Positions 8,816-30,808 of a stretch of 33,726 bases of DNA are shown piece after piece. The notes under the pieces were generated by a model, which ran no database searches, had not been told where the DNA came from, and worked only from the letters and a program-made list of their open reading frames with translations. A program made the translations under genes and the position numbers. Within the stretch, counting starts at the first letter, position 1. Each line of letters opens with the position of its first letter. The DNA comes from Actinomycetes bacterium (lineage in GTDB: Bacteria; Actinomycetota; Acidimicrobiia; Acidimicrobiales; RAAP-2): assembly GCA_021786095.1 (NCBI GenBank), contig JAJYNX010000004.1, positions 1 through 33,726 of the forward strand, written 5' to 3'.

Positions 8816-8842
8816 CTCTTGTGCGAGCACGGCCCCGTGTGC

Positions 8843-8848: not shown

Positions 8849-8854
8849 GGTCGG

Positions 8855-8905
8855 GTGACGACGGTGTCCCTGATTCTGGTAGTAGTAGGAGTGAGGCACC
8901 GGTAG
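8855..8905 (+). CDS. ilvB leader peptide (branched-chain attenuator peptide, 16 residues)
   Basis: A short open frame starts with GTG, exactly 6 bases after a -10 element, and reads MTTVSLILVVVGVRHR before a TAG. Seven of its 16 residues are Leu, Ile or Val in a nearly continuous run (LILVVV-V), including three consecutive GTA valine codons, which are unusual in DNA this GC-rich. It is followed by competing hairpins and a strong terminator ahead of ilvB. Established precedent: ilvB leader peptides controlling transcription by attenuation in enterobacteria and corynebacteria. I infer that scarcity of charged branched-chain tRNAs stalls the ribosome here and lets transcription continue into ilvBNC. 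Confidence 0.85.
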   Translation: MTTVSLILVVVGVRHR

Positions 8906-8933
8906 TCGCACGTACTCGAACACCGGAGGCCTC
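8893..8933 (+). promoter_or_regulatory. Predicted antiterminator hairpin of the ilvB attenuator
   Basis: GAGGC (8893-8897) can pair with GCCTC (8929-8933), and CCGG (8899-8902) with CCGG (8923-8926): 9 bp with a small internal loop. The right arm is also the left arm of the terminator, so the two exclude each other. A ribosome that reaches the stop codon at 8903 would cover the left arm and favour termination. No folding energies were computed. Confidence 0.55.
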
Positions 8934-8959
8934 CCCAGTAGGGGAGGCCTTTTTTGTTT
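8927..8959 (+). terminator. Rho-independent attenuator terminator before ilvB
   Basis: AGGCCTCCCC (8927-8936) and GGGGAGGCCT (8941-8950) form a perfect 10-bp stem with loop AGTA, followed by TTTTTTGTTT (8950-8959). It lies between the leader peptide and ilvB rather than after a gene, which is the mark of an attenuator. Confidence 0.93.
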
Positions 8960-9007
8960 GGGCGACGAGCCAACAGAGGAACACCCAACTAGAGCAGAGA
9001 GGGACTC

Positions 9008-10723
9008 GTGCAACTCACCGGAGCGCAAGCACTCATCAAGAGCCTGGAGCAGCAGGGCGTGGAGACGATCTTCGGGCTGCCTGGTGGGGCGATCCTGCCG
9101 GTCTACGACCCGCTGCTGGACTCGCCGATCCGACACATCCTGGCTCGCCACGAGCAGGGGGCCGGGCACATGGCCGAGGGCTACGCCCTGGCGACGGGCC
9201 GCCCCGGCGTGGCGATGGTCACGAGTGGGCCGGGGTCGACCAACATCGTGACGCCCATCGGCAACGCCCACATGGACTCGACGCCGCTGGTGGTGATCAC
9301 GGGTCAGGTGGCGACGACGTCGATCGGCACCGACGCCTTCCAGGAGTGCGATATCACGGGTATCACGATGGGCATCACCAAGCACAACTTCCTGGTGCAG
9401 TCCGCCCAGGAGCTGCCGCGCGCGGTGGCCGCGGCGTTCCACCTGGCCACGACCGGGCGCCCCGGCCCGGTGCTGATCGACGTGCCCAAGGACGTCAGCC
9501 AGTCGATGATGGAGTGGTGGTACCCCGAGACGCTCGAGGAGCTCGATCTGCCGGGATACCACCCGACGCGCGACCTGGACGAGGAGGCCGTGGCGCGTGC
9601 GGTGCAGTTGATCAGCCGCGCCGAGCGGCCCGTACTCTACGTGGGCGGCGGGACGCTGAAGTCGGGGGCGTCGGCGGCGCTGCTGGCCTTCGCGGAGGCC
9701 ACCCGCATGCCGGTCGTCACCACCCTGATGGCGCGCGGGGCGTTTCCCGACTCCCACGACCAGCACCTGGGGATGCCGGGCATGCACGGGACCTACGCCG
9801 CGGTGACGGCGCTGCAGCGCAGCGACCTCCTGGTGGCGCTCGGGGCCCGCTTCGACGATCGGGTCACCGGGAGGGTGTCCGCCTTCGCACCCGGCGCGTC
9901 GGTGATCCACGTGGACATCGATCGGGCGGAGTTCAACAAGATTCGCCACGCCGACGTCACCCTGCAGACCGACGTGGGCACCGCCCTGGCGGCGCTGGGC
10001 GACGCCGGCGCCACGCCGGCGCCACTCGATGCGTGGTGGCGTGAGATCCGCGCGTGGCGCGCGCAGTACCCGCTGACCTACGACGAGCCCGTAGTCGACG
10101 GCCCGCTGCGCCCCCAGCACGTCATCGAGGCCATCGCGCAGCGCGCCGAGCCGGGGACGATCGTGGCCTCGGGCGTCGGCCAGCACCAGATGTGGACGTC
10201 GCAGTTCTGGCGCTTCGACGAGCCCCGCACGTGGGTGAACTCGGGGGGAGCCGGCACGATGGGCTTCGGCGTCCCGGCGGCGATCGGGGCCAAGGTCGGT
10301 CGTCCCGACCGCGCGGTGTGGTGCATCGACGGCGACGGGTGCTTTCAGATGACCGCCCAGGAGCTGGTCACCGCACGCGCGGAGCGCATTCCGATCAAGG
10401 TCGCCATCCTCAACAACGCCTACCTCGGCATGGTGCGCCAGTGGCAGGAGATGTTCTACGACGAGCGCTACAGCGAGGTCTACCTGTCGGCAGACCTGCC
10501 CGACTACGTGAAGTGGGCCGAGGCGATGGGTTGCGTGGGCCTGCGCGCGACGAACGTCAAGGAGATGGCCGACGTGATCGACGAGGCCAACGCCATCAAC
10601 GACGTGCCGGTCGTGATCGACTTCCGTACCGACACCTCCGAGAAGGTCTTCCCGATGGTGGCGGCCGGAGCGAGCAACGATGACATCATGGTTCACCCCT
10701 CGCAGCGCGGCGGCGCGCGATGA
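9008..10723 (+). CDS. ilvB: Acetolactate synthase, large catalytic subunit
   Basis: IlvB (571 residues) is the ThDP- and FAD-dependent enzyme that joins two pyruvates, or pyruvate and 2-ketobutyrate, in the first common step of branched-chain synthesis. The catalytic Glu49 ([17 protein letters not shown]) and the ThDP/Mg motif [12 protein letters not shown] are present, and all three domains are full length. The GTG at 9008 is preceded by AGAGGGA (8998-9004), a good ribosome-binding site. Transcription depends on the attenuator at 8843-8959. The stop overlaps the ilvN ATG (ATGA), giving equal synthesis of both subunits. Confidence 0.97.
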
Positions 10724-11265
10724 CGCCCCCCGAGCCCTTCGCGGCGGAGATCGTCCACACGCCGGTGCGTCACCACATCTTGTCGGTGCTGGTGGAGAAC
10801 AAGGCCGGCGTGCTGGCACGCATTGCGGGGCTGTTCGCGCGCCGTGGCTTCAACATCTACTCGCTGGCGGTGGCGCCGGCCGAGAGTGACGCTCGCTTCT
10901 CGCGGGTGACCATCGTCGTAGACGCCGAGTCGGCCCCGCTGGAGCAGATCGTGGGCCAGCTGGACAAGTTGGTGAACGTGGTGGCGATCAGCGACCTGGC
11001 GCCGCGCGACGCGCTGGAGCGCGAACTGCTGCTGGCGTCGGTGCCGGTGCTCGACAGTGACACCCGCGCTCGGCTGCTCGACACCATCGCGAACGCCGGC
11101 GCCGCCATCGTCGACGTGGACGCCAGCGCAGTGACGGTCATGCTGACCGGCACGCCCAGCGCCTGCGATGACCTCGAGCGAAGCCTCGAGTCGTTCCCCG
11201 GCGTGGAGTTGCACCGGACTGGTCGCGTGGCCCTCCCTAGACTTGGGCGAACGGCCACGGCCTAG
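10720..11265 (+). CDS. ilvN: Acetolactate synthase, small regulatory subunit
   Basis: IlvN (181 residues) binds valine and adjusts the activity of IlvB. An N-terminal ACT domain ([22 protein letters not shown], then [10 protein letters not shown]) is followed by the C-terminal ALS small-subunit domain. Length is at the upper end of the usual range. The ATG overlaps the ilvB stop by 4 bp. A TAGACT near the 3' end (about 11237) could be an internal promoter for ilvC but is unproven. Confidence 0.95.
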
Positions 11266-11286
11266 GAGAGAAGAGGAACGATTCCG

Positions 11287-12321
11287 ATGACCACGATGTA
11301 CTACGAGAAGGACGCCGATCCCGAGGTTCTCCGGGGCCGCAAGATCGCGGTGCTGGGCTACGGCTCCCAGGGCCACGCCCACGCCCTGAACCTTCACGAC
11401 AGCGGCTTCGACGTACGCGTCGGGCTGCGTCCCGAGTCGTCCTCGGTGCTGAAGGCGGAGGAGGCCGGCCTGCGGGTCCTGGGAATCGCGGACGCGACTG
11501 CCGAGGCTGACGTGATCATGGTGCTGCTGCCCGACACCGAGCAGCAGCGGATCTACGACCTGGAGATCGCGCCGCACCTGTCGGCGGGCAAGTGTCTGCT
11601 CTTCGCGCACGGCTTCAACATCCGCTTCAACCTGATCACGCCGCCGGCCGACGTCGACGTGGCGATGGTGGCGCCCAAGGGACCGGGTCACCTCGTGCGT
11701 CGCACCTACCTCGAGGGTGGGGGCGTGCCCGCACTGATCGCCGTGCACCAGGACGCCACCGGCCACGCCCACGCCCTGGCTCTGGCCTACGCGCACGGCA
11801 TCGGCGCCACCCGGGCCGGCGTCCTGGAGACCACCTTCACCGAGGAGACCGAGACGGATCTGTTCGGCGAGCAGGCGGTGCTCTGCGGTGGCGTGAGCGC
11901 CCTGGTGACCGCGGGCTACGAGACGCTGGTCGAGGCCGGCTACCAGCCCGAGAGCGCCTACTTCGAGTGCCTGCACGAGTTGAAGCTCATCGTCGACCTG
12001 ATGTACGAGGAGGGGATCACCGGCATGCGCTTCAGCGTCTCGGACACCGCCGAGTACGGTGACTTGACCCGCGGTCCGCGCATCATCACCTCCGCCGTGA
12101 AGGACGAGATGAAGAAGGTCCTCACCGAGATTCAGGACGGGACGTTCGCCGCGGAGTGGATCGAGGAGAACCGCATCGGCCGGCCCCGGTACCGCGAGTT
12201 GCGCGACGCCGGCAAGCGCCACCCGATCGAGGCGATCGGTACGCGGCTGCGCGCCATGATGCCCTTCGTGTCCGCCGGCAAGCAGAAGGTGAGCGAGGTC
12301 TCGGGGGGCGACACCGATTAG
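11287..12321 (+). CDS. ilvC: Ketol-acid reductoisomerase
   Basis: IlvC (344 residues, class I short form) isomerises and reduces acetolactate or acetohydroxybutyrate using NADPH and Mg. The nucleotide-binding [10 protein letters not shown] begins at G24, catalytic His108 lies in FAHGFNI, and the metal-binding [10 protein letters not shown] is intact. It begins 21 bases after ilvN with a GAGAGAAGAGGAA purine-rich binding site, so it is the third gene of ilvBNC. A small lipoprotein gene starts about 35 bases after its stop. Confidence 0.97.
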
Positions 12322-16635: not shown

Positions 16636-16661
16636 GAGGGGATCAAATGAAAGGGAGATCA

Positions 16662-18236
16662 GTGTCGAGAGTTCTGGTGACCGAGGAGATAGCCGAGTCC
16701 GGACTGGCCCAGCTGCGCGAGGCGGGACACGAGGTTGACGTTCGTCTGGGGCTCTCGCCCGAGGAGTTGCTCGGCGCGGTGCGCGGCGCGCACGCGCTGA
16801 TCATCCGCTCGGCCACCCAGGTCGACGCGGCGACGCTGGAGGCCGGTACCGACCTCGTGGTGGTCGGTCGCGCCGGCATTGGCCTGGACAACGTGGACGT
16901 GACGCGGGCGACCGAACTCGGGATCATGGTCGTCAACGCCCCGCAGTCGAACATCGTCTCGGCGGCCGAGCACACGATTGCGTTGCTGCTCGCTCAGGCG
17001 CGCAATATCCCGCAGGCCAACGCGGCGCTGCGCGCCGGCAAGTGGGAGCGCTCGAAGTGGGGCGGAGCGGAGATCTACGCCAAGACCCTCGGCATCATCG
17101 GGCTGGGCAAGATCGGCGCCCTGGTCGCCCAGCGGGCGTTGGCCTTCGGGATGAACCTGATCGCCTACGATCCCTACGTCACCGAGGAGCGCGCTCGTCG
17201 CATGGGGGTGACGCTCACCGACCTGGACACGCTGCTCGCGCAGAGCGACTTCATCACGATCCACCTGCCCAAGACCAAGGAGACCCTCAACCTCCTGAGC
17301 GCGGAGCGACTCGCTCAGACCAAGGTGGGCGTGCGGATCATCAACGCGTCGCGGGGTGGACTGATCGATGAGGACGCGCTGGCCGACGCGATCAACCGCG
17401 GTCACGTGCAGGGAGCCGCGCTGGACGTCTTTGCGGTCGAGCCGGCGACCGGCTCGGCGCTGGTGGCGTTGCCCTCGGTGGTGGCGGTGCCGCACCTCGG
17501 GGCGTCGACGACCGAGGCGCAGGACAAGGCTGGCGTCACCATCGCGGAGCAGGTGCAGCTGGCGCTCGAGGGGGACTTTGTCCCCTTCGCCGTCAACGTC
17601 GCGGCCGGCGAGGTGTCGAACGTGGTCCGACCGTTCATGGGGGTGGCCGAGATCCTAGGGCGCTTCATCGGTGGTCTGCTCGACGGACAGCCAGCGGACC
17701 TCGAGGTGATCTACCAGGGAGAGCTGGCGGGCGCGGGGACCAAGATCCTGACGCTCTGCGCGCTGAAGGGTCTGCTGAGCTCGACCGGTCACGACGGGGT
17801 GTCCTTCGTCAACGCTCCCCAACTGGCCACAGAGCACGGCCTGACCTGGGGCGAGGCCTCGACGGTGGAGTCACCGGAGTACGTGAACCTCATTACCGTG
17901 CGCTCGGGGGATCACGCGGTGTCCGGCACGCTGATGACGATCGGCACTCGGGTGGAGACCCGCATCGTCTCGGTCGACGGCCACAGTGTGGAGATCCCGC
18001 CCACGACGTCGATGCTGGTCGTGCGCAACGACGACCGGCCCGGAATGATCGGTGTGGTCGGCGTCGCTCTCGGTGAGGCGGGGGTCTCGATCGCGTCCAT
18101 GGCCGTGGGACCCGATCCCCGACTGGGCACGGCTCTGATGGTTCTCTCGACGACCTCGCCGACGCCCGCGTCCGTGATCGACCGACTGCGTGACACCGAC
18201 GGCATTGCCGACATCCACTTGATCACCCTGCGCTGA
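16662..18236 (+). CDS. serA: D-3-phosphoglycerate dehydrogenase
   Basis: SerA (524 residues from the GTG) oxidises 3-phosphoglycerate with NAD, the first step of serine synthesis. It is the long form: substrate/NAD domains (GIIGLGKIGALVAQ; catalytic His in VPHLGASTTEAQ), an allosteric substrate-binding domain, and a C-terminal ACT domain (SMLVVRNDDRPGMIGVVGVAL) that usually binds serine. An ATG at 16647 is in frame, but the ribosome-binding site AAGGGAG (16651-16657) lies downstream of it and 4 bases before the GTG at 16662, so I take GTG as the start. A TAGCCT at 16630-16635 is a likely -10. The last codon and stop lie in a tandem repeat. Confidence 0.95.
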   Translation: MSRVLVTEEIAESGLAQLREAGHEVDVRLGLSPEELLGAVRGAHALIIRSATQVDAATLEAGTDLVVVGRAGIGLDNVDVTRATELGIMVVNAPQSNIVSAAEHTIALLLAQARNIPQANAALRAGKWERSKWGGAEIYAKTLGIIGLGKIGALVAQRALAFGMNLIAYDPYVTEERARRMGVTLTDLDTLLAQSDFITIHLPKTKETLNLLSAERLAQTKVGVRIINASRGGLIDEDALADAINRGHVQGAALDVFAVEPATGSALVALPSVVAVPHLGASTTEAQDKAGVTIAEQVQLALEGDFVPFAVNVAAGEVSNVVRPFMGVAEILGRFIGGLLDGQPADLEVIYQGELAGAGTKILTLCALKGLLSSTGHDGVSFVNAPQLATEHGLTWGEASTVESPEYVNLITVRSGDHAVSGTLMTIGTRVETRIVSVDGHSVEIPPTTSMLVVRNDDRPGMIGVVGVALGEAGVSIASMAVGPDPRLGTALMVLSTTSPTPASVIDRLRDTDGIADIHLITLR

Positions 18237-18286
18237 CCACACGGCGCTGACCACACGGCGCTGACCACACGGCGCTGACCACACGG
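18231..18286. repeat. Four perfect tandem copies of a 14-bp unit
   Basis: The unit CGCTGACCACACGG is repeated four times without a mismatch (18231, 18245, 18259, 18273). The first copy contains the last sense codon (CGC) and the TGA stop of serA. The array fills most of the gap to the convergent aldo/keto reductase gene. Confidence 0.98.
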
Positions 18287-18325
18287 CGCGTCGCGGTCTT
18301 CGAGGGACGTCGCTGGACTCGGGTG

Positions 18326-19312
18326 CTACGCCGTCTGCAGGGTGATGAGGTCGAGCCGCTCCATGACGTCCGGGGTGAGCAGCGCCATGGCGTCGAGAGC
18401 TGTCATGTTCTCGTGAACCTGAGCTGCGCTCGACGCGCCGGTGATGACCGTGGACACGTGGGGGTTCTTGGCGCACCACGCCAACGAGAGTTGGGTGAGG
18501 GTGATGCCCAACTCGTCAGCGATGACCTTGAACTGGGCGACCTTGTTGTTGCGCCCTTCGTCGGTGAGCATCTCGCGCAGCCACTCGTATCCCGGCAGCG
18601 TGGCCCGTGAGCCTTCGGGCACCCCGTGGAGGTACTTCCCGGTCAGCAGGCCCGAGGCCAGCGGCGACCAGATGGTCGTGCCCAGACCGATGTCCTCGTA
18701 GAGTCGGCGGTACTCCTGCTCGACGCGCGTGCGCCAAAGCAGGTTGTACTGGGGCTGTTCCATCACCGGCTTGTGGAGGTGGTGGCGCTCGGCGATGTCG
18801 TAGGCGGCACGAATCTCGTCCGCGCTCCACTCCGAGGTGCCCCAGTAGAGAGCCTTACCGGCGCTCACCATGTCACTCATCGCCCAGACCGTCTCCTCGA
18901 TCGGCGTGTGCGGGTCGGGTCGGTGGCAGAAGACGAGGTCGACGAAGTCGAGACCGAAGCGCTCCAGCGAGCCGTCGATCGCCTGGGCCAGGTACTTTCG
19001 GTTCAGTGTGTTCTTCATGTTGACCTGGTCGTGCAGGCCCCAGAACAGTTTGGTGGACACCACGTACTCGTGGCGGGCCCATCCGAGATCGCGCAGGGCC
19101 GCTCCCATGACACGCTCCGACTCGCCACCGGCGTAGGCCTCGGCGTTGTCGAAGAAGTTCACCCCGGCGTCCTTGGCGGCACTCATGCACTCGGCGGCGA
19201 GCGCGGCGTTGGCGATCTGGTCTTCGTTGGCGAAGGTCACCCAACTGCCTAGAGAGAGGACGCTGACCCGCAGGCCCGAGCGTCCGAGGTGCCGATACTC
19301 CATCGTGGTCAT
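18326..19312 (-). CDS. Aldo/keto reductase, Kv-beta-like (AKR6-type)
   Basis: This 328-residue NADPH-dependent oxidoreductase has the full catalytic tetrad: Asp55 and Tyr60 (FFDNAEAY), Lys88 (VVSTKLFW) and His130 (LVFCHRPD). The opening [21 protein letters not shown] and the C-terminal cofactor region place it with the potassium-channel-beta-like bacterial reductases, which reduce small aldehydes. The physiological substrate is unknown. The ATG at 19312 has AAGGA 8 bases upstream; an ATG at 19303 is an alternative. A small membrane-protein gene lies 67 bases upstream on the same strand and may share the transcript, although a hairpin (19355-19371) lies between them. Confidence 0.92.
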
Positions 19313-19354
19313 GATGCCATCCTTGGTTGTCGATCTGGTGGTGAGAGGTGGTCG

Positions 19355-19371
19355 CGCCGCGGCTCGCGGCG
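19355..19371 (-). terminator. Hairpin between the small membrane gene and the reductase gene
   Basis: CGCCGCG (19355-19361) and CGCGGCG (19365-19371) form a 7-bp stem with a 3-base loop and no T-run. It may weaken read-through, or it may just be GC-rich chance. Confidence 0.25.
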
Positions 19372-19379
19372 ACTCGGGG

Positions 19380-19532
19380 CTAGGCGGCCGAGTTCTCCGG
19401 CACGTCGGGCCACTGGTCGAACGAGATGGTCTCGTCATCGCGCGAACGACGCGCCATGGTCACGAGTCCGGCGACCGCCGCCCCCACGAGCAGGATGATC
19501 ATCAACTTGAACAGGGTTTTGAAGAGGCTCAC
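19380..19532 (-). CDS. Small single-pass membrane protein (50 residues), unknown
   Basis: This is a short gene that size filters would miss. From a GTG start it encodes [20 protein letters not shown] and onward: a basic N-terminus, one transmembrane helix (about residues 9-25), a short basic stretch (ARRSR), then an acidic tail ending [19 protein letters not shown] -10 element (19546-19541) stands 8 bases before the GTG, so the message is probably leaderless. The coherent membrane topology and placed promoter support a real gene. It sits back to back with the leuA attenuator and upstream of the reductase. Function unknown. Confidence 0.7.
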
Positions 19533-19560
19533 GTTGACCAACCTTAGCGGCTGGCCCCAC

Positions 19561-19588
19561 TGGACATTCCAGGAGAAGGCGATAGAAT
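19561..19588 (+). promoter_or_regulatory. Promoter of the leuA leader (-35 and -10)
   Basis: TGGACA (19561-19566) and TAGAAT (19583-19588) are separated by 16 bases, the best-looking promoter in the window. The leader-peptide GTG starts 6 bases after the -10, so transcription should start on it. Confidence 0.7.
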
Positions 19589-19594
19589 GGTCGT

Positions 19595-19633
19595 GTGACT
19601 ACTGGAATCTACGACGGGCTGCTGCTGGAATAG
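19595..19633 (+). CDS. leuA leader peptide (leucine attenuator peptide, 12 residues)
   Basis: A GTG exactly 6 bases after the -10 opens a 12-codon frame reading MTTGIYDGLLLE, followed by TAG. Three consecutive Leu codons (CTG) lie just before the stop, with one Ile earlier. It is followed by a competing stem and a strong terminator before leuA, as in known leu leaders. Its first bases closely match those of the ilvB leader, and both peptides begin MTT. I infer that leucyl-tRNA shortage stalls the ribosome on the Leu run and prevents termination. Confidence 0.85.
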   Translation: MTTGIYDGLLLE

Positions 19634-19659
19634 GGCGGGTCGTCGTGACGCCGCCGCCC
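19633..19659 (+). promoter_or_regulatory. Predicted antiterminator hairpin of the leuA attenuator
   Basis: GGGCGG (19633-19638) can pair with CCGCCC (19654-19659), a 6-bp stem whose right arm overlaps the left arm of the terminator (19657-19664). The left arm begins at the last base of the leader stop codon, so a ribosome finishing the peptide would mask it and allow termination. Confidence 0.5.
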
Positions 19660-19684
19660 CCGCGTACGCGGGGGTTTTTTGTTT
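19657..19684 (+). terminator. Rho-independent attenuator terminator before leuA
   Basis: CCCCCGCGTACGCGGGGG (19657-19674) is a perfect palindrome forming a stem of 7-8 bp, followed by TTTTTTGTTT (19675-19684). The same T-tract sequence ends the ilvB attenuator. It lies between the leader peptide and leuA. Confidence 0.92.
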
Positions 19685-19686
19685 AG

Positions 19687-21387
<1,701 letters not shown>

Positions 21388-21396
21388 CGCCGACCA

Positions 21397-21402
21397 TAGT
21401 CT
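21397..21402 (+). promoter_or_regulatory. -10 element of the PQ-loop gene, leaderless
   Basis: TAGTCT is followed by 6 bases (GGAGAG) and the GTG at 21409. The purines are too close to the start to act as a usual ribosome-binding site. Confidence 0.5.
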
Positions 21403-21408
21403 GGAGAG

Positions 21409-22029
21409 GTGAGCTTCGCTCTGGTGAGTCTGTGGCTGGGGTGGATCGCGGCGGCGGCCGGAGTGGTGAGCGCCATCGTGCAGTATCGGCGCGTCCTGCT
21501 ACGCGGCGTGGAGGGCGTCTCGCTCGGAACCTGGCTGATTTTCGCCTACATGGGCGTCTTTTGGATCGTGTATGGCGTCGACGTGCGCTCGTGGGTTCTG
21601 GTGGTGGGCAGTGCGCTCCTGCTGCCGCTGCAGCTGGGGATCGTGGCGCGGCTCGCCCCCGGGCGACACGCGGGAGTGCTGTGGCGCGCCGCGTTGTTCG
21701 TGGCGGCCTTCGGGGTCGCGCCGGCCCTGGCCTGGGGATGGGTCGCCGGCGTGTACGGGATGGGCGCGGCCATGGTCGTGACGCGCGTGCCCCAGCTGTG
21801 GGATCTCGTGCGCACGCCCGGGTCGACGGGCGTGTCGGCTGGATCGTGGCTGGTCAGCGCGTCTGGCTCGGCTCTGTGGGTCGCCTACTACGTGGGTGCG
21901 CACCTGTGGGCCGCGCTGGTTGGCAGTGCGCTGTCGGCGGCCGCGAGCACCGCGATCGCGGCGTTGGCCGGCTGGCGACACCGCCGAGCGCGCGCCGAGG
22001 ACGTGCGCGAGGACGTGCTGGTCGCCTGA
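21409..22029 (+). CDS. PQ-loop / SWEET-like membrane protein with two repeats
   Basis: This 206-residue integral membrane protein has about seven hydrophobic segments and two copies of a PQ-loop-like unit. The first has VQYRRVLLRGVEGVSLGTWL (Q25, with Val in place of Pro); the second has PQLWDLVRTPGSTGVSAGSW (P128-Q129). Each repeat has the PQ-loop order of motif, basic loop, G-V-S-x-G/S-x-W, and an aromatic helix. The family includes SWEET/SemiSWEET sugar carriers and lysosomal amino-acid exporters. Substrate unknown; its place after leuA might hint at amino-acid export, but that is only inference. Its end lies 14 bases from the stop of the convergent dehydrogenase. Confidence 0.8.
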   Translation: MSFALVSLWLGWIAAAAGVVSAIVQYRRVLLRGVEGVSLGTWLIFAYMGVFWIVYGVDVRSWVLVVGSALLLPLQLGIVARLAPGRHAGVLWRAALFVAAFGVAPALAWGWVAGVYGMGAAMVVTRVPQLWDLVRTPGSTGVSAGSWLVSASGSALWVAYYVGAHLWAALVGSALSAAASTAIAALAGWRHRRARAEDVREDVLVA

Positions 22030-22043
22030 TCAGCCCCGCGCCA

Positions 22044-23273
22044 TCAACCCTGCAGTGAGAAGTCGGGCTGGTGCTTCATGATCTCGCGGCGTGCGATGGT
22101 CATCTTGTGCACTTCGTCGGGACCGTCGGCGATGCGCAGCGTGCGCTGGTGGGCGTACATCTGGGCGAGCGGGTAGAACTGCGTGACCCCCGCCGCGCCG
22201 TGGACCTGGATGGCGCGATCGATGACCCGCAGCGCCATGTTGGGGACCGCGACCTTGATCCCCGCGATGGCCGTGGCCGCCGCACGGTTGCCCACGGTGT
22301 CCATGAGGTGGGCGGTGTGCAGGACGTACTCGCGCGCCATGTCGATCTCGATTCGCGACTCGGCGATCCAGTCCTGGATCACCCCCTTGCGCGCGAGGCT
22401 GGAGCCGAACGTGGACCGCTCGAGCGAGCGCGTGACCATGAGTTCCAGGGCCCGCTCGGCGACGCCGATCGACCGCATGCAGTGGTGGATGCGACCCGGC
22501 CCGAGACGGGCCTGGGCGATCGCGAAGCCGCCGCCCTCCTCCCCGAGCAGGTTGTCGACGGGCACCCGTACGTCGCGGTAGATGATCTCGGGGTGGCCAC
22601 CGCGCTCGGCGTAGCCGAAGACGTGGGGGTCCATGCCGAGCTCGACGCCCGGGGTGTCGCGGGGCACGACGACCATCGACTGCTGGAGGTGGCGCGACGC
22701 GGCGGGATTGGTCTTGCCCATGACGATGAGCACGCGGCAGCGTTGTGCGCGCGCGCCCGAGGAGAACCACTTGCGCCCGTTGAGGACGTACTCGTCGCCG
22801 TCGCGCTCGATCGTCAGCCCGATGTTGGTGGCGTCGGACGAGGCGACGTCGGGCTCGGTCATCGAGAACGCGCTGCGGATCTCGCCGGCCAGCAGGGGTT
22901 CCAGCCACTGCGCCTTGACTCGCTCGGACCCGTAGAGGCTCAGGATCTCCATGTTGCCGGTGTCGGGGGCGTTGCAGTTGAGCACCTCGGGGGCGAAGCC
23001 GACCCGGCCGAGCAGTTCGGAGACCGGGGCGTAGTCCAGGTTCGAGAGTGGGGTGCCGGGGCTGTCGGCCCGCAGGTGGGGCAGGAAGAGGTTCCAGAGC
23101 CCCCGTTCCAGCGCCGCCGACTTCAACTTGTCGAGGATGGGGGGGTAGCCGTCGGCACCCACGTCCTCCAGCTGGGCGTAGTAGGTCTCCTCCGCCGGGT
23201 AGATGACGTGCTCCATGAATCGTCGCACGGCGTCGTGGATCTCGACTCCCCGGTCACTGAACTGGTAGGGCAT
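22044..23273 (-). CDS. Acyl-CoA dehydrogenase, FadE2/ACAD11-like
   Basis: This 409-residue flavoprotein belongs to the acyl-CoA dehydrogenase fold. The FAD/substrate motif TEPDVASSDATNI and the run GPGRIHHCMRSIGVAERALELM are typical of the FadE2/ACAD10-11 subgroup. Where medium-chain enzymes have the catalytic Glu (YEGT), this protein has Asp383 (IADGPDEVH), also a mark of that subgroup. Known ACAD10/11 relatives act on 4-hydroxy/4-phospho-acyl-CoAs rather than on plain acyl-CoAs. The ATG at 23273 has GAGGAG 4 bases upstream. It starts 26 bases after the FGGY kinase stop and is the last gene of that operon. Confidence 0.9.
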   Translation of the reverse strand: MPYQFSDRGVEIHDAVRRFMEHVIYPAEETYYAQLEDVGADGYPPILDKLKSAALERGLWNLFLPHLRADSPGTPLSNLDYAPVSELLGRVGFAPEVLNCNAPDTGNMEILSLYGSERVKAQWLEPLLAGEIRSAFSMTEPDVASSDATNIGLTIERDGDEYVLNGRKWFSSGARAQRCRVLIVMGKTNPAASRHLQQSMVVVPRDTPGVELGMDPHVFGYAERGGHPEIIYRDVRVPVDNLLGEEGGGFAIAQARLGPGRIHHCMRSIGVAERALELMVTRSLERSTFGSSLARKGVIQDWIAESRIEIDMAREYVLHTAHLMDTVGNRAAATAIAGIKVAVPNMALRVIDRAIQVHGAAGVTQFYPLAQMYAHQRTLRIADGPDEVHKMTIARREIMKHQPDFSLQG

Positions 23274-23299
23274 GGCACTCCTCGTGGTGGCCTCGCGTC

Positions 23300-24844
23300 T
23301 CACGATACGCCTCTCCCCGCACGCTCGCGCCGCCGTCGGGCGTGGCGCGCCGACGCGCGTAGCGCGACCACGCGTTCGCGGCTGCGCTCGGCCTCCTCGG
23401 GATTGGGCTCGAAGAGGTCGTCGCTCACCGAACGGGCGATCTCGCGCGCGTCGCCTCCGATCAGGGCGGCCGCAGCCAGTCGCGTGACGCCGCGCACCTG
23501 AGCCAGCAGCGGCGCGTGCACGCGCCGCACGCGCCGCTCGAGGGTGTCGGCGTAGATCTGGCACCACAGGTCACTCTGCGCCCCGCCGCCCAGCAGGCGC
23601 ACGTCGTCCAGGCGCCGGCCGGCGAAGCGCTCGACGTGGGAGAAGAGCCACGCGCTGTTCGTCGCGACGCCTTCCAGGACGGCCCGGATCAGGTCGGCCG
23701 AGGTGCAGGACGTGGTCAGGTGGGCGAACCCCCCGCGTAGGCCCTTGTCGTCGACCGGCGAGCGCTCGCCGGCCAGCCACGGCGTGAAGCGCACGCCGTG
23801 GGCGCCGCTGGGCGAGCGGGCGGCGAGCTCGGTGAGGTCCGCGAGACTCGACGGCGTAGGCCCTCCCGCGGCCGCCTGGAACCACTCGAGGGCGCGCGCG
23901 CCGGTCTCCTGGTTGTCGGCGACGAGGTAGGAGTCGTTGCTGAGGCCGGGTACCGCGGCGATGGCGTGGAGCACGTCGGTCTTCTTGGTGGGCACGGGGC
24001 AGCTGATCCACGAGGTCGTGGACAGTGCGAGGTGCGTCTCGTAGTCGCGTGTCGCCCCGGTGCCCAGAGCGGCGGCGTGCAGGTCGGGTACGCCGGTCAC
24101 GACGAGGGCGTCGGCGGTCAGCCCGCAGGCTCGTGCGGCCTCGGGGCAGACGGTGCCCACGACGTCGCCCAGGCGCAGCAGTGGCGGCAGGCGCGCGGCG
24201 TCGAGGCCCACGCTGGCCACCAGCCCCTCGTCGTAGGCGAGGCGCGTGAGGTGGCGGTTGTCGGTGAGCCACGACGCCAGGCGCGACGCGTGCGTCGCGC
24301 TGGCGGTGGCGCTGAAGCGCATGGTCAGGTAGTCCACGGGTTCCATGAACCAGCGCGTCGCCGCCGTGATCGCGGGTCGCTCGTGGCGTAGGAAGAGCAT
24401 CTGACCGATCGGGTCCGCCCCCGAGGTCGCCGGCGCGCCGCCGCTACGGCGCACGAATCGCACGATCGCGCGGGGGTCGTAGCCGAGCAGTGCACCGCCT
24501 ACCGCGCGGCGGCTGTAGGGCCCCCCACGCGTGTCGAGCCAGGTGAGGCACGGACCCGTGGGCGTGCCGCGGGCGTCCACGGGCACGGTCGAGGCGTACT
24601 GCCCGGTCACCGCGACCGCTCGGACGCGTCCGCGCGTCACGGCGTGGCGTTCGACCAGGCGTCGCGACGACGCGCTGATGAGTCGCCACCACTCGTTGGC
24701 GTCCTGCTCCGCGGCGCCGCGGTCGTCGAGCAGGGTGCGCAGGGGGTGGGTCTCGTGACCGAGCACGGCCCCCTCGAGCGTGACGAGGGCGACCTTGAGC
24801 CCACTGGTGCCCAGGTCCACCCCCAGGCAGAGCTCGTCGCTCAT
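23300..24844 (-). CDS. FGGY-family carbohydrate kinase (xylulokinase-like, substrate unknown)
   Basis: This 514-residue ATP-dependent kinase has the actin-like FGGY fold. The phosphate loop DLGTSGLK starts at D10, the TWLDTRG motif (W102, D104, R106) marks the sugar site, the catalytic base is probably Asp254 (VTGVPDLHAAALGTG), and LLGGGAQSDLWCQIYAD is the adenine-site motif. Family members phosphorylate polyols and keto-sugars. The substrate-side GQYASTVPVD differs from the GQMHG of xylulokinases, so I would not name a sugar. The ATG at 24844 overlaps the stop of the S1P-lyase-like gene (ATGA), meaning tight coupling. Confidence 0.9.
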   Translation of the reverse strand: MSDELCLGVDLGTSGLKVALVTLEGAVLGHETHPLRTLLDDRGAAEQDANEWWRLISASSRRLVERHAVTRGRVRAVAVTGQYASTVPVDARGTPTGPCLTWLDTRGGPYSRRAVGGALLGYDPRAIVRFVRRSGGAPATSGADPIGQMLFLRHERPAITAATRWFMEPVDYLTMRFSATASATHASRLASWLTDNRHLTRLAYDEGLVASVGLDAARLPPLLRLGDVVGTVCPEAARACGLTADALVVTGVPDLHAAALGTGATRDYETHLALSTTSWISCPVPTKKTDVLHAIAAVPGLSNDSYLVADNQETGARALEWFQAAAGGPTPSSLADLTELAARSPSGAHGVRFTPWLAGERSPVDDKGLRGGFAHLTTSCTSADLIRAVLEGVATNSAWLFSHVERFAGRRLDDVRLLGGGAQSDLWCQIYADTLERRVRRVHAPLLAQVRGVTRLAAAALIGGDAREIARSVSDDLFEPNPEEAERSRERVVALRASARHARRRRERAGRGVS

Positions 24845-26220
24845 GGTGCGGGTAGGGCCGTCTGGTGGTCCATGAGATCGGCCATGAAGAAGCGCACCAC
24901 GTCGTCGACGTCCTCGCTCGGCCCCTCCGGGGCACCGCCGTAGATCGCGCCACTGCGGGCGGGCTCGTCACGATGGTGCTGTGCGTACTCCACCGCGTCG
25001 GCGAGGTCGCGCCGCCAGCGCTCGAGGACGCCGGGCTGGGTCTGGGGTCGGGTCACGGCGAGGTGCAGGGCGTTGGGATACTGCTGGCCGTTGAGCCGCC
25101 AGCCGCGCGTGGCCAGGAAGTCCTGGACGTGGTAGACGTCGAACTCGTCGGACGTGAAGGAGAAGAGGAACGTCGGCCGCCCCATCACGCGAAGTGACGG
25201 GTGCTCGTCGAGCGCGGCGCGCATCGACGCCGCGGTGGCGAAGATGTCGGCGGCGTAGCGCCGGTAGCCGTCACGGCCGAGGTGCACCATGGCCGCCCAG
25301 GTGGCCGCGAGCAGCCCCCCCGAGCGCGATCCGTCCATGCCCGGCGAGCAGTACTTCCCGCCCGACCAGTCACTCTGGTAGAAGTACTGGGCGTTGCGCA
25401 GCGCGCGGTCCGCGAAGCAGACCACGCTCGTCCCCTTGAGGGCGTAGCCGTACTTGTGGGTGTCGGCCGAGATCGAGGTGACGCCGGGCACGCTCAGGTC
25501 GAAGGGCGCGATGTCGTAGCCGAGCTCGCGACCGAAGGGCAGGATGAAGCCGCCCAGGCAGGCGTCGACGTGCAGGCCGATGCCGTGGCGCAGCGCGAGG
25601 GCTCCGAGCTCGCCGATCGGGTCGATCGTGCCGTAGCCGTAGTTGGTGGCTGATCCGATCAGCGCGACGGTGTCGGCGTCGATGTGCTCGGCGACCCAGT
25701 CGAGGTCCACCTGGGTGGTGATCGGATCGACCGGCGCGACGCGCATGGCGACGCCGAAGAGGTGCCCGGCCTTGGCGAAGGCCGGGTGGGCCGTCTCGGG
25801 CCTGATCATGACGGGGTGGGCGACGTCGGGGTTCGCCTCGCGATAGGCGAGCACCGCGTGGGCGATCGAGGCCGATCCGCCCGACGTCACGAGCCCGACG
25901 GGCGTCGTGTCGTGACGCTCCCCGGCGCCCAGGAGGTCGAGCGTCATCGCGATGATCTCCGCCTCGAACTTGGTGGCACTCGGGCACATGTCGCGCTGCA
26001 GGGCGTTCACGTGGGAGAAGTACGAGAACGCCTCGTTCAAGAAGTCGTAGTGATCGTGATCGCCGCAGTACATCGTTCCCGAGCACTGCCCGGACTCCCA
26101 GATCGGGTCCTCGGCGCGGGCCATCGTCGTCAGTGCCTCGCGGATGGTCGCCCGGTCGAGGCCGGACTCGGGCAACCGACGGTGGACGGCTAGGCGGTCG
26201 GCGTAGGGAAAGTCGCTCAT
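24841..26220 (-). CDS. Sphingosine-1-phosphate-lyase-like PLP enzyme
   Basis: This 459-residue fold-type I PLP enzyme belongs to the group II decarboxylase superfamily. The segment GVTSISADTHKYGYALKGTS (PLP lysine K256) and HVDACLGGFI (D219) match sphingosine-1-phosphate lyase almost word for word, as do DWSGGKY and GSRSGG further on. S1P lyases cleave phosphorylated 2-amino-1,3-diols to phosphoethanolamine and an aldehyde. There is no transmembrane anchor, as in other bacterial homologues. The ATG at 26220 has GAGG 4 bases upstream and a TACTGT -10 (26248-26243). It is followed, with a 4-bp overlap, by an FGGY kinase, which could supply the phosphate such a lyase needs. A glutamate-decarboxylase-like activity is the main alternative. 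Confidence 0.85.
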   Translation of the reverse strand: MSDFPYADRLAVHRRLPESGLDRATIREALTTMARAEDPIWESGQCSGTMYCGDHDHYDFLNEAFSYFSHVNALQRDMCPSATKFEAEIIAMTLDLLGAGERHDTTPVGLVTSGGSASIAHAVLAYREANPDVAHPVMIRPETAHPAFAKAGHLFGVAMRVAPVDPITTQVDLDWVAEHIDADTVALIGSATNYGYGTIDPIGELGALALRHGIGLHVDACLGGFILPFGRELGYDIAPFDLSVPGVTSISADTHKYGYALKGTSVVCFADRALRNAQYFYQSDWSGGKYCSPGMDGSRSGGLLAATWAAMVHLGRDGYRRYAADIFATAASMRAALDEHPSLRVMGRPTFLFSFTSDEFDVYHVQDFLATRGWRLNGQQYPNALHLAVTRPQTQPGVLERWRRDLADAVEYAQHHRDEPARSGAIYGGAPEGPSEDVDDVVRFFMADLMDHQTALPAP

Positions 26221-26242
26221 GGCACCTCGCTCTCGTGTCACG

Positions 26243-26248
26243 ACAGTA
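26243..26248 (-). promoter_or_regulatory. Putative -10 element of the lyase-kinase-dehydrogenase operon
   Basis: On the minus strand TACTGT lies 22 bases before the ATG at 26220, in the 54-base gap after leuD. This leaves a short leader carrying a GAGG ribosome-binding site, and suggests the operon is independent of greA-leuCD. Confidence 0.4.
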
Positions 26249-26274
26249 CGACACGGCGCGCGGCGCCGCCAGGG

Positions 26275-26877
26275 TCAGGGGGCGAAGCGGGTGGGCACGC
26301 GCGGCGTCCAGTGCGTGGACTCGAAGCGGGCGATCTCGTCGTCGTGACGAAGGGTCAGGCCGATGGTGTCCCACCCGTGGAGCAGGCGCTCGCGGGTCAG
26401 CGCGTTGAGCGTGAAGGGGTGCTGCCATGTGGCGTCGGGCACCTCGACCAGCAGTCGCTCGACGTCGACGACGACCAGCCTCGAGGGATCCGCCTTCACG
26501 AGTCGGGTCAGCTCCTCGAGTGCGTCGGCGGGCAGGGTCACGGTCACGAGGCCCTGGGACGCCGCGTTGTTGGCGAAGATGTCGCCGAAGGAGGACGCCA
26601 CGACGGCGGTGAAGCCGTAGTCCATCAGCGCCCAGACGGCGTGCTCGCGCGAGGACCCCGTGCCGAAGCGCGCCTGGGCGACCAGGATCGTGGCCCCGGC
26701 GTAGGCGGGCTGGTTGAGGACGAAGTCGGGGTCGTCGCGCCACTCACTGAACAGGCCTCGCCCGAAGCCGGTGCGCTCCACTCGCTTGAGCCACTCCGAG
26801 GGGATGATCTGGTCGGTGTCCACGTCGGAGCGCTCCAGGGGGACGGCTCGACCCTCGACCACGCGCACGGGGTTCAC
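26275..26877 (-). CDS. leuD: 3-isopropylmalate dehydratase, small subunit
   Basis: LeuD (200 residues) pairs with LeuC to isomerise 2-isopropylmalate to 3-isopropylmalate. The swivelling-domain motifs are present: [14 protein letters not shown] near the N-terminus and [14 protein letters not shown] for substrate binding. The frame is open upstream, but the family begins at the GTG at 26877, which overlaps the leuC stop by 4 bp (GTGA). Last gene of greA-leuC-leuD. Confidence 0.95.
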
Positions 26878-28274
26878 GCGTCCACCTCGGTGGGCGAGGC
26901 GAAGCGGCCCATCAGAGCCGTCGCGGCGGCGACGGCCGGCGAGACGAGGTGGGTGCGCCCGCCGCGTCCCTGGCGACCCTCGAAGTTGCGGTTCGAGGTC
27001 GACGCGCTGCGTTGGCCGGGTCGTAACTGGTCCGGGTTCATCCCCAGGCACATCGAGCAGCCCGGCTCGCGCCACTCGAAGCCCGCGTCGAGGAAGACGC
27101 GGTCGAGGCCCTCGGACTCGGCGTGGCGCTTGACGGCGTGCGATCCCGGCACGACCAGGGCGCGGACTCCGTCGGCGACCCGGCGCCCGCGCACCACCTC
27201 AGCGGCCGCCCGGAGATCCTCTAGTCGGGAGTTGGTGCACGAGCCGATGAACACGACGTCCACCGTGACGGCACGCATCGGCGTGCCCGGCTCGAGGCCC
27301 ATGTAGGCGAGGGCCCGCGCGGCGGCCTCGGCCTGGGCCGGGTCGGGCTCGTCCTGCGGCGAGGGGACCACGCCGTCGAGGGCGACGACCTGGGCCGGGT
27401 TCGTGCCCCAGGTCACCGAGGGGACCAGGTCCTCGGCGCGCAGGGTCACCTCGCGGTCGAAGGGCGCGTCGTCGTCGCTGACGTAGGTGCGCCAGCGAGC
27501 GGCGAGCCGGGCGAACTCGTCGGCGTCGACGATCACGTGCTCGCGCAGGTAGTCGATCGTCGTGTCGTCGACCCCGATCAGTCCGGCGCGGGCTCCGGCC
27601 TCGATGCTCATGTTGCAGATCGTCATGCGACCCTCCATCGAGAGGTCGCGGATGGCCTGGCCCCGGTACTCGATGACGTGGCCGGCACCGCCGCCCGTGC
27701 CCAGGCGCGCCACGATCGCGAGCACGATGTCCTTGGCGCTCACCCCGGGCGGCACAGTCCCGTCGATGGTCACCGCCATCGTGCGGGCGCGCTGGTGGGG
27801 CAGAGTCTGGGTCGCCAGGACGTGCTCCACCTCACTGGTGCCGATGCCGAACGCCAGAGCGCCGAACGCGCCGTGGGTGGAGGTGTGCGAGTCACCGCAC
27901 ACGATCGTCATGCCCGGTTGGGTGGCGCCGAGCTCGGGTCCGATCACGTGGACGATCCCCTGGTGCTCGTCGCCGCGCGGGAACAGGGTGATGCCGAACT
28001 CGCGACAGTTCTCGTCCAGGGCCTCGAGCTGACGGCGCGAGATCGGGTCGCTCACGGGGGTCGACGGCGGGTCGGTCGGGACGTTGTGGTCGGCGGTGGC
28101 CAGGGTGCGCTCGGGACGACGCACGCGTCGCGAGGCCAGCCGCAACCCGTCGAAGGCTTGGGGGCTCGTCACCTCGTGGATCAGGTGCAGATCGATGTAG
28201 AGCAGGGGCGCCTCGTCGGGCGGCGACGCCACCAGGTGCTCGTCGAAGAGCTTCTCGTACAGTGTGCGAGGCAT
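26874..28274 (-). CDS. leuC: 3-isopropylmalate dehydratase, large subunit
   Basis: LeuC (466 residues) is an aconitase-family enzyme. The three [4Fe-4S] cysteines are C346 (GSCTNSR), C406 and C409 ([10 protein letters not shown]), at nearly the same positions as in Escherichia coli LeuC. The N-terminal [12 protein letters not shown] and [30 protein letters not shown] motifs are intact. The ATG at 28274 begins only 2 bases after the greA stop, so it is probably translated by coupling or from a site within greA. It overlaps leuD by 4 bp. Confidence 0.97.
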
Positions 28275-28276
28275 CG

Positions 28277-28753
28277 TCAGCGCAGTCCCACGATCCTCAC
28301 GCGCAGCGTGCCCGAGGGAGCCTCGTACTCGACCACGTCACCCACCGCTCGGTCGAGCAGCGCGGCTCCCAGCGGCGATGTGGGCGACGCCACGAGGACT
28401 CCGTCGGGCTTCTCCTCGATCGAGCCCACGAAGAACTCCTGGATGTCGTCCTCGGGATCGCCCTCGTAGACGACCTGCACGATCGAGGCGTGGTGCACGA
28501 CACCAGTGTGCACGTCGCGCTCGACCAGCTCGTGGTTGCGCAGCACGTGGTCGATCTGTCGGATGCGCGACTCCATCTTTCCCTGCTCGTCCTTCGCGGC
28601 GTGGTAGTCGCCGTTCTCCGACAGGTCACCGAGCAGGCGTGCGGCCTCGATGGTGCGGGCAATCTCCGTGCGTCCCACGGTGGTGAGGTAGTCGTACTCC
28701 TCGCGCAGCTTCTCGAGGGTCTCTCTCGTGATGCGATGAATTTCCCCGGCCAT
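28277..28753 (-). CDS. greA: Transcription elongation factor GreA
   Basis: GreA (158 residues) rescues backtracked RNA polymerase by stimulating transcript cleavage. The N-terminal coiled coil spans about residues 5-75, with the two acidic tip residues D43 and E46 ([15 protein letters not shown]) that coordinate the catalytic Mg. The C-terminal FKBP-like domain ends in [21 protein letters not shown]. The frame runs on upstream, but the ATG at 28753 matches the family start. It heads the operon greA-leuC-leuD, with only 2 bases to leuC, and is divergent from leuB. Confidence 0.95.
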
Positions 28754-28787
28754 GCCGCTACCCCGTGTACGAAGTGGTGAAGTTCTG

Positions 28788-28797
28788 AGTGTACAGT
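28788..28797. promoter_or_regulatory. Overlapping divergent -10 elements between greA and leuB
   Basis: AGTGTACAGT contains TACAGT (28792-28797) pointing to leuB and, on the other strand, TACACT (28793-28788) pointing to greA. The two share bases 28792-28793, so one polymerase at a time could use them. Confidence 0.4.
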
Positions 28798-28865
28798 GCG
28801 GGCTCGTCGCCGTGCGCGTGCTTGGGCCGCCCGGCGCCGAGCAGACGGGACGGCAAGGAGGGCGA

Positions 28866-29882
28866 GTGCAGCACAACTATCGGGTGGCGGTCATCGGTGG
28901 GGACGGTATCGGGCCGGAGGTGACCGCAGCGGCCCTGGGGATCGCGCAGGCGGCGGGCGTCGCGCTGGACACCACCACCTTCGACCTGGGTGCGCAGCGC
29001 TACCTGCGTGACGGGACCGTGCTCGACGACACGACGTTGGAGGAGTTGCGCGGGTTCGACGCGATCCTGCTCGGGGCGATCGGCCCGGCGATCGGCGACA
29101 CGCGCATCCCCGGCGGGGTGCTGGAGCGCGGACTGCTGCTGCGTCTGCGCTTCGCTCTGGACCTGTACGTGAACTACCGGCCGTTCCACGCGGTTCCCGG
29201 CTCGATCGCCCAGGGGAGCTCGTTCGCGATCGTGCGTGAGAACACCGAGGGGCCCTACGTCGGCGAGGGCGGCGTGCTGCGCCGCGCCACACCCCAGGAG
29301 GTCGCGACGCAGGGATCGGTGAACACGCGCTTCGGCGTCGAGCGCTGCGTGCGCTACGCCTTTGCTCGGGCCGCGGAGCTGACACGGCCGCGGCTGACCC
29401 TCGTCCACAAGACCAACGTCCTGACCTTCGCCGGGGACCTCTGGTCGCGGGTGACGACCGAAGTGGGCCAGGAGTACCCGGACGTCGAGGTGGACTACCA
29501 GCACGTCGACGCGGCCTGCATCTACCTGGTCGAGGATCCGCGGCGTTACGGGATCATCGTGACGGACAATCTCTTCGGCGACATCCTGTCCGATCTCGCG
29601 GGCGCCGTCACCGGCGGTATTGGCTACGCGGCCAGCGCCAACCTCAATCCCGCGCGCACCGGACCGTCCATGTTCGAGCCGGTGCACGGGGCGGCTCACG
29701 ACATCGCCGGGACCGGGCGGGCGAACCCGCTGGCGGCGATCTCGTCGGTCGCGCTGCTGGTCGAGTTCCTCGGGGAACGCGACGCCGCCGCACGCATTGC
29801 GCGGGCCGTGCAAGACTTCGAGGGAGACGCCCCCACCATGGGGACGGCCGCGATCACTGAAGCCGTTCGAGAGAGGTTGTAA
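28866..29882 (+). CDS. leuB: 3-isopropylmalate dehydrogenase
   Basis: LeuB (338 residues from the GTG) oxidatively decarboxylates 3-isopropylmalate with NAD, the last dedicated step to 2-ketoisocaproate. Catalytic Tyr131 ([12 protein letters not shown]) and Lys182 ([11 protein letters not shown]) are present, with the Mg aspartates in [12 protein letters not shown]. The frame is open upstream to a GTG at 28812, but the family begins at [12 protein letters not shown], and AAGGAGGG (28855-28862) lies just before the GTG at 28866. The TAA stop overlaps the ilvE ATG by one base (TAATG). Confidence 0.95.
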
Positions 29883-30808
29883 TGCCCATCACCCCCACCA
29901 AGAAGATATGGATGGACGGCGTCCTGGTCGACTGGGACCAGGCTCGCCTGCACGTGCTGAGTCACGGGCTGCACTACGGCACGGGGGCCTTCGAGGGCAT
30001 TCGCGCCTACAAGACACCCTCAGGCGTCGCCATCTTCCGGCTGCGCGAGCACATGGAGCGGCTGGTGCGCAGCTGTCGGATCCTGATGATGGAGATCCCT
30101 TACACCGTCGATCAGCTGTGTGACGCGGCCCTCGAGGTCGTGCGGGTCAACGAGCTGTACGACGGTTGCTACCTTCGTCCACTCGTCTACCTGGGCTACG
30201 GCGAGATGGGCGTCAACCCCATGGGGGCTCCCGTGAACGTCGCGATGGCCGCGTGGCCGTGGGGGGCGTACCTGGGTGACGAGGGTGTGGCGCACGGAGT
30301 GCGCATGAAGATCTCGTCGTGGCGCCGCCACGACCCCAACGCCATGCCGACTGCGGCCAAGGGGACGGGGATGTACGTCAACTCGGCGTTGGCCAAGGTC
30401 GAGGCGGTGAAGGCCGGCTACGACGAGGCGATCCTGCTGGGTCCGGACGGCCGGGTGTCCGAGTGCACCGGGGAGAACATCTTCGTGGTGCGCGACGGGG
30501 TCGTGCTCACCCCGCCGCCGTCCGAAGCCGGCGCGCTGGCCGGCATCACTCAGGCGACGGTGGTCCAGATCGCGCGTGACCTGGGCTACGAGGTGCGCTT
30601 CGAGTCGCTCGTGCGCACCGACCTCTACCTGGCTGATGAGGCCTTCCTGACCGGGACGGCGGCCGAGGTGGTGCCCATCGCCTCGGTCGACGACCGGGCG
30701 GTCGGCGTCGTTACGCCGGGTCCCGTGACGTCGGCCCTGCAGTCCACCTACCACCACGCCGTGCGAGGGGAGCTGCCCCGGTACGAGGAGTGGCTCGCGA
30801 GGGTGTGA
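29882..30808 (+). CDS. ilvE: Branched-chain amino acid aminotransferase
   Basis: IlvE (308 residues) is a fold-type IV PLP enzyme that transfers the amino group from glutamate to the three branched-chain keto acids, the final step of the pathway. The PLP lysine is K160 (PTAAKGTGMYVNSALAK), the same number as in Escherichia coli IlvE, and HGLHYGTGAFEGIRAY and VSECTGENIFVV are in place. It is translationally coupled to leuB. A D-amino-acid transaminase or ADC lyase of the same fold is unlikely given this context and motif set. Confidence 0.95.
   Translation: MPITPTKKIWMDGVLVDWDQARLHVLSHGLHYGTGAFEGIRAYKTPSGVAIFRLREHMERLVRSCRILMMEIPYTVDQLCDAALEVVRVNELYDGCYLRPLVYLGYGEMGVNPMGAPVNVAMAAWPWGAYLGDEGVAHGVRMKISSWRRHDPNAMPTAAKGTGMYVNSALAKVEAVKAGYDEAILLGPDGRVSECTGENIFVVRDGVVLTPPPSEAGALAGITQATVVQIARDLGYEVRFESLVRTDLYLADEAFLTGTAAEVVPIASVDDRAVGVVTPGPVTSALQSTYHHAVRGELPRYEEWLARV

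Follow-up and report, generated by a model that had tools for sequence, protein, structure and literature searches.

A putative leucine attenuator upstream of leuA in Acidimicrobiia and related leaders before other genes

Described attenuators and the leuA leader

In textbook attenuation two RNA folds compete for the same bases. The trp and leu leaders of E. coli combine this with a choice between ribosome stalling and completion of the leader peptide and with a terminator before the gene; their antiterminator takes most of the terminator left arm. The element reported here would follow the same stall-versus-completion logic and also has its terminator before the gene, but its control codons lie 28 nt from the terminator, compared with 54 nt in trp and 70 nt in leu.

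The actinobacterial ilvB attenuators are more similar. The leader of C. glutamicum ilvBNC (IlvL; ilvB-II motif) is described as a near-leaderless short ORF with branched-chain codons, followed by a hairpin whose base adjoins a terminator located before the gene (PMC11857589; PMC10272879), and the arrangement found here, with a probably leaderless ORF, is alike. According to these descriptions, the C. glutamicum hairpins have three bases in common, with the Val run six codons before the peptide end (PMC11857589; PMC10272879), whereas most copies of the leuA family share no base, with a gap of 0-5 nt, and have 0-1 codon after the control codons; the genes also differ, ilvBNC there and leuA here. 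For M. tuberculosis ilvB1, a uORF with LVVI codons and a terminator about 126 nt from the start are reported, and a ribosome at the stop codon is said to mask the antiterminator (PMC13236596); this is similar in layout and in logic, although the gene and the codons are different. By analogy with these published accounts, the leuA element may be expected to work like the actinobacterial ilvB attenuators (PMC11857589; PMC13236596; PMC10272879).

Leader peptides bearing a Leu run have already been described before leuA in this phylum. The LEU element has this run inside the peptide and is described without a typical terminator and with a proposed conserved pseudoknot, whose base stem is placed between the Leu codons and the ribosome-binding site of leuA (PMC1262725); LeuL1 of Streptomyces lividans is reported to be leaderless and, in its description, likewise has no typical terminator (PMC8079986). 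In the leader considered here the Leu run is at the end of the peptide and a terminator is present. Our searches of open-access literature gave no description of the present element.

The window, by which we mean the whole stretch of 33,726 nucleotides that was analysed, comes from a draft assembly that totals 2.1 Mb in 117 contigs. Among named relatives, the nearest are Acidimicrobiaceae and Actinomycetes assembled from metagenomes. All parts of the leader are on the forward strand. The promoter TGGACA-N16-TAGAAT (19561-19588) has 10 of 12 consensus matches and is the only match in 18500-20800, where shuffles give 0.2 on average. Six bases past the -10 box, a GTG at 19595 opens the leader ORF VTTGIYDGLLLE* (19595-19633, with TAG at 19631-19633), and the control codons CTG CTG CTG (19619-19627) are separated from the stop codon by one Glu codon. 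The intrinsic terminator (19656-19680), which is supported by the sequence scan and by covariation, consists of the stem-loop 19656-19675, GCCCCCGC-GTAC-GCGGGGGT, then TTTTTGTTT with the U-tract; in 18500-20800 two terminator-like sites are observed for 0.9 expected. The upstream neighbour gene (18326-19438) is on the opposite strand, so the terminator does not serve it. The gene presumably controlled is leuA (19711-21387), which encodes 2-isopropylmalate synthase (NCBIfam TIGR00970, 793.5 bits at a cut-off of 697.4). The first-pass annotation had described the promoter, the GTG six bases after it, the palindromic terminator and the compactness of the whole, about 125 bases from the promoter to the end of the U-tract, and all of these are present; it had put the three Leu codons directly before the stop, which is not quite exact, as the one Glu codon stands in between.

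Between the stop codon and the terminator the RNA can fold into a hairpin of two forms. The non-overlapping form (19634-19655) abuts the terminator; it is the fold obtained when a ribosome occupies the first Leu codon, and the homologous helix covaries in relatives. The alternative form (19633-19659), whose left arm begins at the G of the stop codon (19633), takes 4 bases of the terminator left arm and is the lowest-energy fold as long as the right arm is unmade. Positions 19595-19684 fold with -41 kcal/mol (z -2.57), and 2 of 200 shuffles are equally good. Rfam 15 gives no match in the window at or above the gathering score; seven sub-threshold matches fall in 19400-19800, the best with E 0.3. 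Much of the branched-chain amino acid pathway is encoded in the window: the genes ilvD, ilvB, ilvN, ilvC, leuA, leuC, leuB and ilvE, plus serA, gatA and gatB, are found at 7136-12318 and 16647-30805.

Conservation of the peptide, the helices and the control codons

Among 110 leuA loci collected, 89 were distinct, and 73 of these had a LeuA identity of at least 64% and 150 nt of upstream sequence. The 16 excluded loci are 13 below 64% identity (L090, L091, L102 and ten mycobacterial-type loci of Mycolicibacterium, Mycobacterium, Rhodococcus, Gordonia and Antrihabitans) and three cut by a contig end (L079, L099, L109); L048 and L066 contain masked bases. A short ORF ending in Leu-Leu-Leu plus 0 or 1 codon is found at 69 of the 73 loci, so that the check proposed in the annotation, conservation of the peptide upstream of leuA, turned out in its favour. 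Control codons next to the stop, to which it had drawn attention, are not peculiar to this leader but usual in the class. Outside the Leu run the peptide is variable. At the first Leu position all six codons occur (CTG 35, CTA 12, CTT 9, CTC 8, TTG 3, TTA 2) and at the other positions three or four of the six; since synonymous codons vary, what is conserved is the residue and not the RNA sequence. Models of how codon position influences sensitivity exist for other attenuators (PMC1183508). It can also be observed that contigs titled Saccharibacteria, Acidobacteria, Deltaproteobacteria or Chloroflexi (L051, L053, L072, L090, L091, L109) carry a leuA 64-83% identical to that of the window; these are perhaps mislabelled or mixed assemblies.

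The distance between the -10 box and the start codon suggests that the window leader is probably transcribed as a leaderless RNA. A TANNNT box precedes the start by 5-8 nt in 67 of the 69 leaders (by 6-7 nt in 64), in a count whose start codons were selected with knowledge of the -10 box; if the nearest start is taken blindly, a -10-like box is at 6-7 nt in 60 of the 69 relatives. Each of the other offsets from 0 to 49 has at most three occurrences of TANNNT among 68 leaders, and TGGACA at the 16-nt spacing is present in 38 of the 67 relatives having a -10-like box. For class- and phylum-wide copies, the box is 4-9 nt before an in-frame start in 76 of 181 (the background is about 0.02), and for short-type leuA copies in 14 of 60. 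Considering that only 76 of the 181 wider copies have the box, leaderless starts are not established class-wide.

The alignment A1 comprises 63 leaders, 61 of them distinct; the six of the 69 that lacked a strict terminator call were omitted. In A1, 97.4% of cells pair, and two-sided changes are found in 8 of 16 pairs, a number reached by 3 of 500 shuffles. The covariation score is 0.227 compared with 0.128 in shuffles (none of 500 is as high) and does not exceed 0.075 when the structure is slid; unconstrained RNAalifold selects the same two helices, the hairpin and the terminator. The covariance model R1 was made from these 63 leaders, the window copy included, and contains the Leu codons. 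A search of the whole genome with R1 returns the window leader at E 1.8e-10 and nothing else above noise (the next match has E 0.46); only leuA bears the R1 element in this genome. In the window's genus, 12 of the 14 sampled genomes, its own included, have an R1 match at E 0.001, and in the class 100 of 296 do. The gene directly downstream of the 104 R1 matches is of the LeuA type in 93 cases (57 long-type and 36 short-type), cimA in three, ilvB in three and leuS in one; four have none assigned.

The annotation had named loss of the peptide with the terminator kept as evidence against attenuation. This situation is only approached in a few copies: L032, L055 and L068 keep two of the three Leu codons, and R1 matches all three loci, while L133 (genome G181) keeps both hairpins and has one Leu codon near the stop. 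Upstream of leuA in L030 (genome G022) there is no such leader, and R1 gives no match there; in the close relatives L133 and L030 the switch seems to decay. Below 64% identity, L091 carries the element according to R1, and the leuA upstream regions of L090 and L102 contain no such leader.

Some R1 hits had other codons and other genes, and for this reason a second model, R2, was derived from 85 sequences of R1 hits (alignment A4); it starts at the stop codon and does not include the control codons. Two-sided changes are found in 15 of the 16 pairs of A4, and no shuffle of 500 is as high on all five measures. R2 matches 169 of the 296 class genomes at E 0.01, in 112 of 148 genera, and 51 of 346 phylum-sampled genomes at E 0.001, of which 29 belong to other classes; the genomes are mostly draft metagenome assemblies, and related sequences are not independent. 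Of the 34 R2 matches from other classes, 12 lack an assigned branched-chain gene behind them and resemble chance matches. The window's own copy, which has a divergent hairpin, is missed by R2; the best R2 match in that genome has E 0.55.

The Leu codons are a part of R1, and claims about codons therefore rest on the R2 hits, though R2 itself was derived from R1 hits. We fetched 63 hits in the class, hand-picked among the matches listed and mostly not given by R1, and all 34 outside it, and scored the three codons before the last one in distinct hits. Before leuA these are LLL in 48 of 48 fetched hits (27 of 27 short-type, 21 of 21 long-type), and three codons further upstream LLL occurs in none of the 48. 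Before cimA (citramalate synthase) two or three Ile codons are found in all 8 fetched hits, and before ilvB only Val, Leu or Ile in 15 of 17, the exceptions being one hit without an ORF and one with VVD. The five fetched hits before leuS have LLL (two), LLR (two) and LGL (one), and those before leuB-like genes are all Val/Ile in 6 of 7. Representative cimA and leuS fragments match best TIGR00977 and TIGR00396, and ilvB fragments match acetolactate synthase models, with scores below the whole-protein cut-offs because the fragments are partial; the leuB-like genes were named by eye from an IDH/IPMDH-like start. These last are L257, L263, L265, L266, L293, L294 and L346, where Val/Ile codons on the same chassis stand before a start resembling isopropylmalate or isocitrate dehydrogenase.

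One RNA chassis with different codons before leuA, cimA, ilvB and leuS amounts to a natural codon-swap experiment. As far as comparison of sequences can tell, the codon run follows the gene, and this is the strongest evidence that the peptide codons are the sensor. With the Leu residues kept, the hairpin and the terminator covarying and the codons changing with the gene, the original reading of a leucine attenuator gains support: we regard the window element as a real, putatively leucine-responsive attenuator, and we are highly confident that attenuation would depend on the leucine codons.

Spacing and a proposed mechanism

The Leu run is separated from the stop by one codon in 50 leaders and by none in 19, and this state changed at least six times on the LeuA tree (FastTree). 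A distance of 6 nt from the Leu run to the start of the hairpin core is found in 36 of the 50 one-codon leaders (12 at 7 nt, 2 at 5 nt) and in 13 of 18 no-codon leaders (4 at 5 nt, 1 at 3 nt), and the distance from the stop to the hairpin differs by 3 between the two kinds. Judged by these distances, the position of the hairpin is set relative to a ribosome on the Leu codons and not to the stop codon. Hairpin and terminator are separated by 0-5 nt in every one of the 181 copies from the class and the phylum, and this also holds for all 67 leaders gathered without a spacing requirement. The set of 181 combines R1 and R2 hits, those of R2 in the class being picked among the matches listed; it excludes the spurious R1 hits L180, L208 and L212, a further 13 distinct hits for which no gene was assigned, and an ilvB hit that lacked a short ORF. 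The parts, their conservation, covariation and spacing and the match of codons and genes are read from the sequence; we infer the leaderless start, the stalling, the direction of the response and a blocking by abutment rather than by shared bases.

On the assumption that a ribosome covers the RNA to about +15 from its P-site, one awaiting tRNA at the first or second Leu codon would not reach the hairpin, and one at the stop codon would cover the left arm of the hairpin; the hairpin would be what leucine controls. We presume that transcription starts at or beside the GTG and that ribosomes bind the 5' end of the RNA. Under a shortage of charged tRNA-Leu they would stall on the Leu codons, the RNA would be free from about the stop codon on, and the post-stop hairpin could form directly at the foot of the terminator, at a distance of 0-5 nt across the family. 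A second helix at this distance upstream could not follow the terminator stem into RNA polymerase; the stem would not be fully closed there, and leuA would be read. In the window copy the hairpin may additionally take four terminator bases, and this overlap would add ordinary competition. Closure of the last 2-3 terminator pairs is reported to be essential (PMC4824070); a point against the role of abutment is that pairs of adjacent hairpins have themselves been described as sites of intrinsic termination (PMC8355165). That the hairpin blocks closure of the terminator by abutting it is our best explanation of this step, at odds just short of even; the full statement of a leucine-responsive transcription attenuator with such blocking is the one we favour, with reservations.

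Alternative explanations and related leaders

The post-stop stem could instead be a textbook antiterminator pairing with the terminator left arm, as in E. coli trp and leu. We assessed this by counting the left-arm bases held by the upstream fold while the right arm is unmade. The controls behaved as expected (5.0 of 7 bases in trp, 6.0 of 9 in leu, 6.4 of 11 in the window's ilvB leader), and the window leuA leader loses on average 3.4 of 8, or 4 of 8 in the lowest-energy fold; four relatives, in contrast to the controls, lose 0 to 1. Similarly, two or more bases are common to the hairpin and the terminator in 51 of the 181 copies, and in C. glutamicum ilvBNC termination reportedly hinges on a boundary overlap of three bases (PMC11857589), but no base is shared in 123 of the 181. 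The competing stem of the first-pass annotation is thus found in the window copy, where the hairpin and the terminator overlap by 4 nt and the competition is marginal, and not in most relatives. Ordinary competition may be enough in this one copy; as the explanation of the element, we consider the textbook mechanism rather unlikely. The completed terminator, moreover, wins in all ribosome states examined. Over the 63 leaders its pairs have a mean probability of at least 0.74 in each state, and opening costs at least 15.8 kcal/mol; since it is always stable, equilibrium folding (energies at 37 C, co-transcriptional kinetics being outside the calculation) does not predict read-through. A search for a classical competitor of the terminator in the 63 leaders and four ribosome states gave none. 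In the window RNA without a ribosome the leader pairs with the hairpin region, and the terminator is kept. A copy of the S-E-L codons (GCGAG) was considered as a rival partner of the hairpin right arm and rejected, as the N-D-L-L-L and G-L-L-L leaders, inspected by eye, are without it. With the ribosome at the stop, weak folds are predicted to hold 2.1 left-arm bases in the window leader and 0.8 to 3.1 in the four relatives, which is a point against a clean switch.

The hairpin might also act as a pause signal that synchronises the ribosome with RNA polymerase, so that the distance of the ribosome decides termination. A nearby ribosome is reported to suppress the terminator, and in E. coli the efficiency of termination rises with the stop-terminator distance up to about 27 nt (PMC4824070), while here the stop codon and the terminator stem are 19-30 nt apart, mostly 22. 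However, leucine excess, with the ribosome at the stop, would then favour read-through, which is the wrong direction for a biosynthetic gene, and the constant distance from the hairpin to the Leu codons would be left unexplained; we consider this very improbable. Still less credible is that we are dealing with a form of the LEU element acting on translation or via a bound protein. LEU is reported before leuA in most Actinobacteria, and the gene, the phylum and a leader peptide with a Leu run are the same (PMC1262725), but a terminator is present here, whereas attenuator parts are reported missing there (PMC1262725), and in the ten mycobacterial-type leuA loci LLL is in the middle of the peptide and R1 gives no match up to E 1. 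By the position of the Leu run, the terminator and the R1 matches, the window element is, as far as tested, not the LEU element.

Returning to attenuation with an abutting hairpin, we tentatively propose a modular cassette of Acidimicrobiia and some other actinobacteria, in which a stall-dependent hairpin disables the terminator at the polymerase exit channel with no need of shared bases, and in which the sensing codons, two to four positions ahead of the stop, switch among Leu, Ile and Val mixes to suit leuA, cimA, ilvB, leuS or a leuB-like gene. In many genomes of this one class, the two hairpins seem mostly to have no base in common and yet to keep closely to set distances from each other and from the control codons, so that one can test directly how a hairpin lying upstream might disable a terminator. 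Such leaders might also supply parts of about 125 bases for the reporting of single amino acids.

Two further observations concern related leaders. Before ilvB (9008-10720) the window has a second leader, the ORF VTTVSLILVVVGVRHR* at 8855-8905 followed by a terminator at 8925-8952, in which the promoter scan gives no -10 box; in the above count its stalled stem takes most of the left arm, which gives it the appearance of a textbook attenuator akin to C. glutamicum IlvL. The motif CAUA is found in the hairpin loop of 41 of the 181 copies (kinship uncorrected), before long-type and short-type leuA, ilvB and cimA alike.
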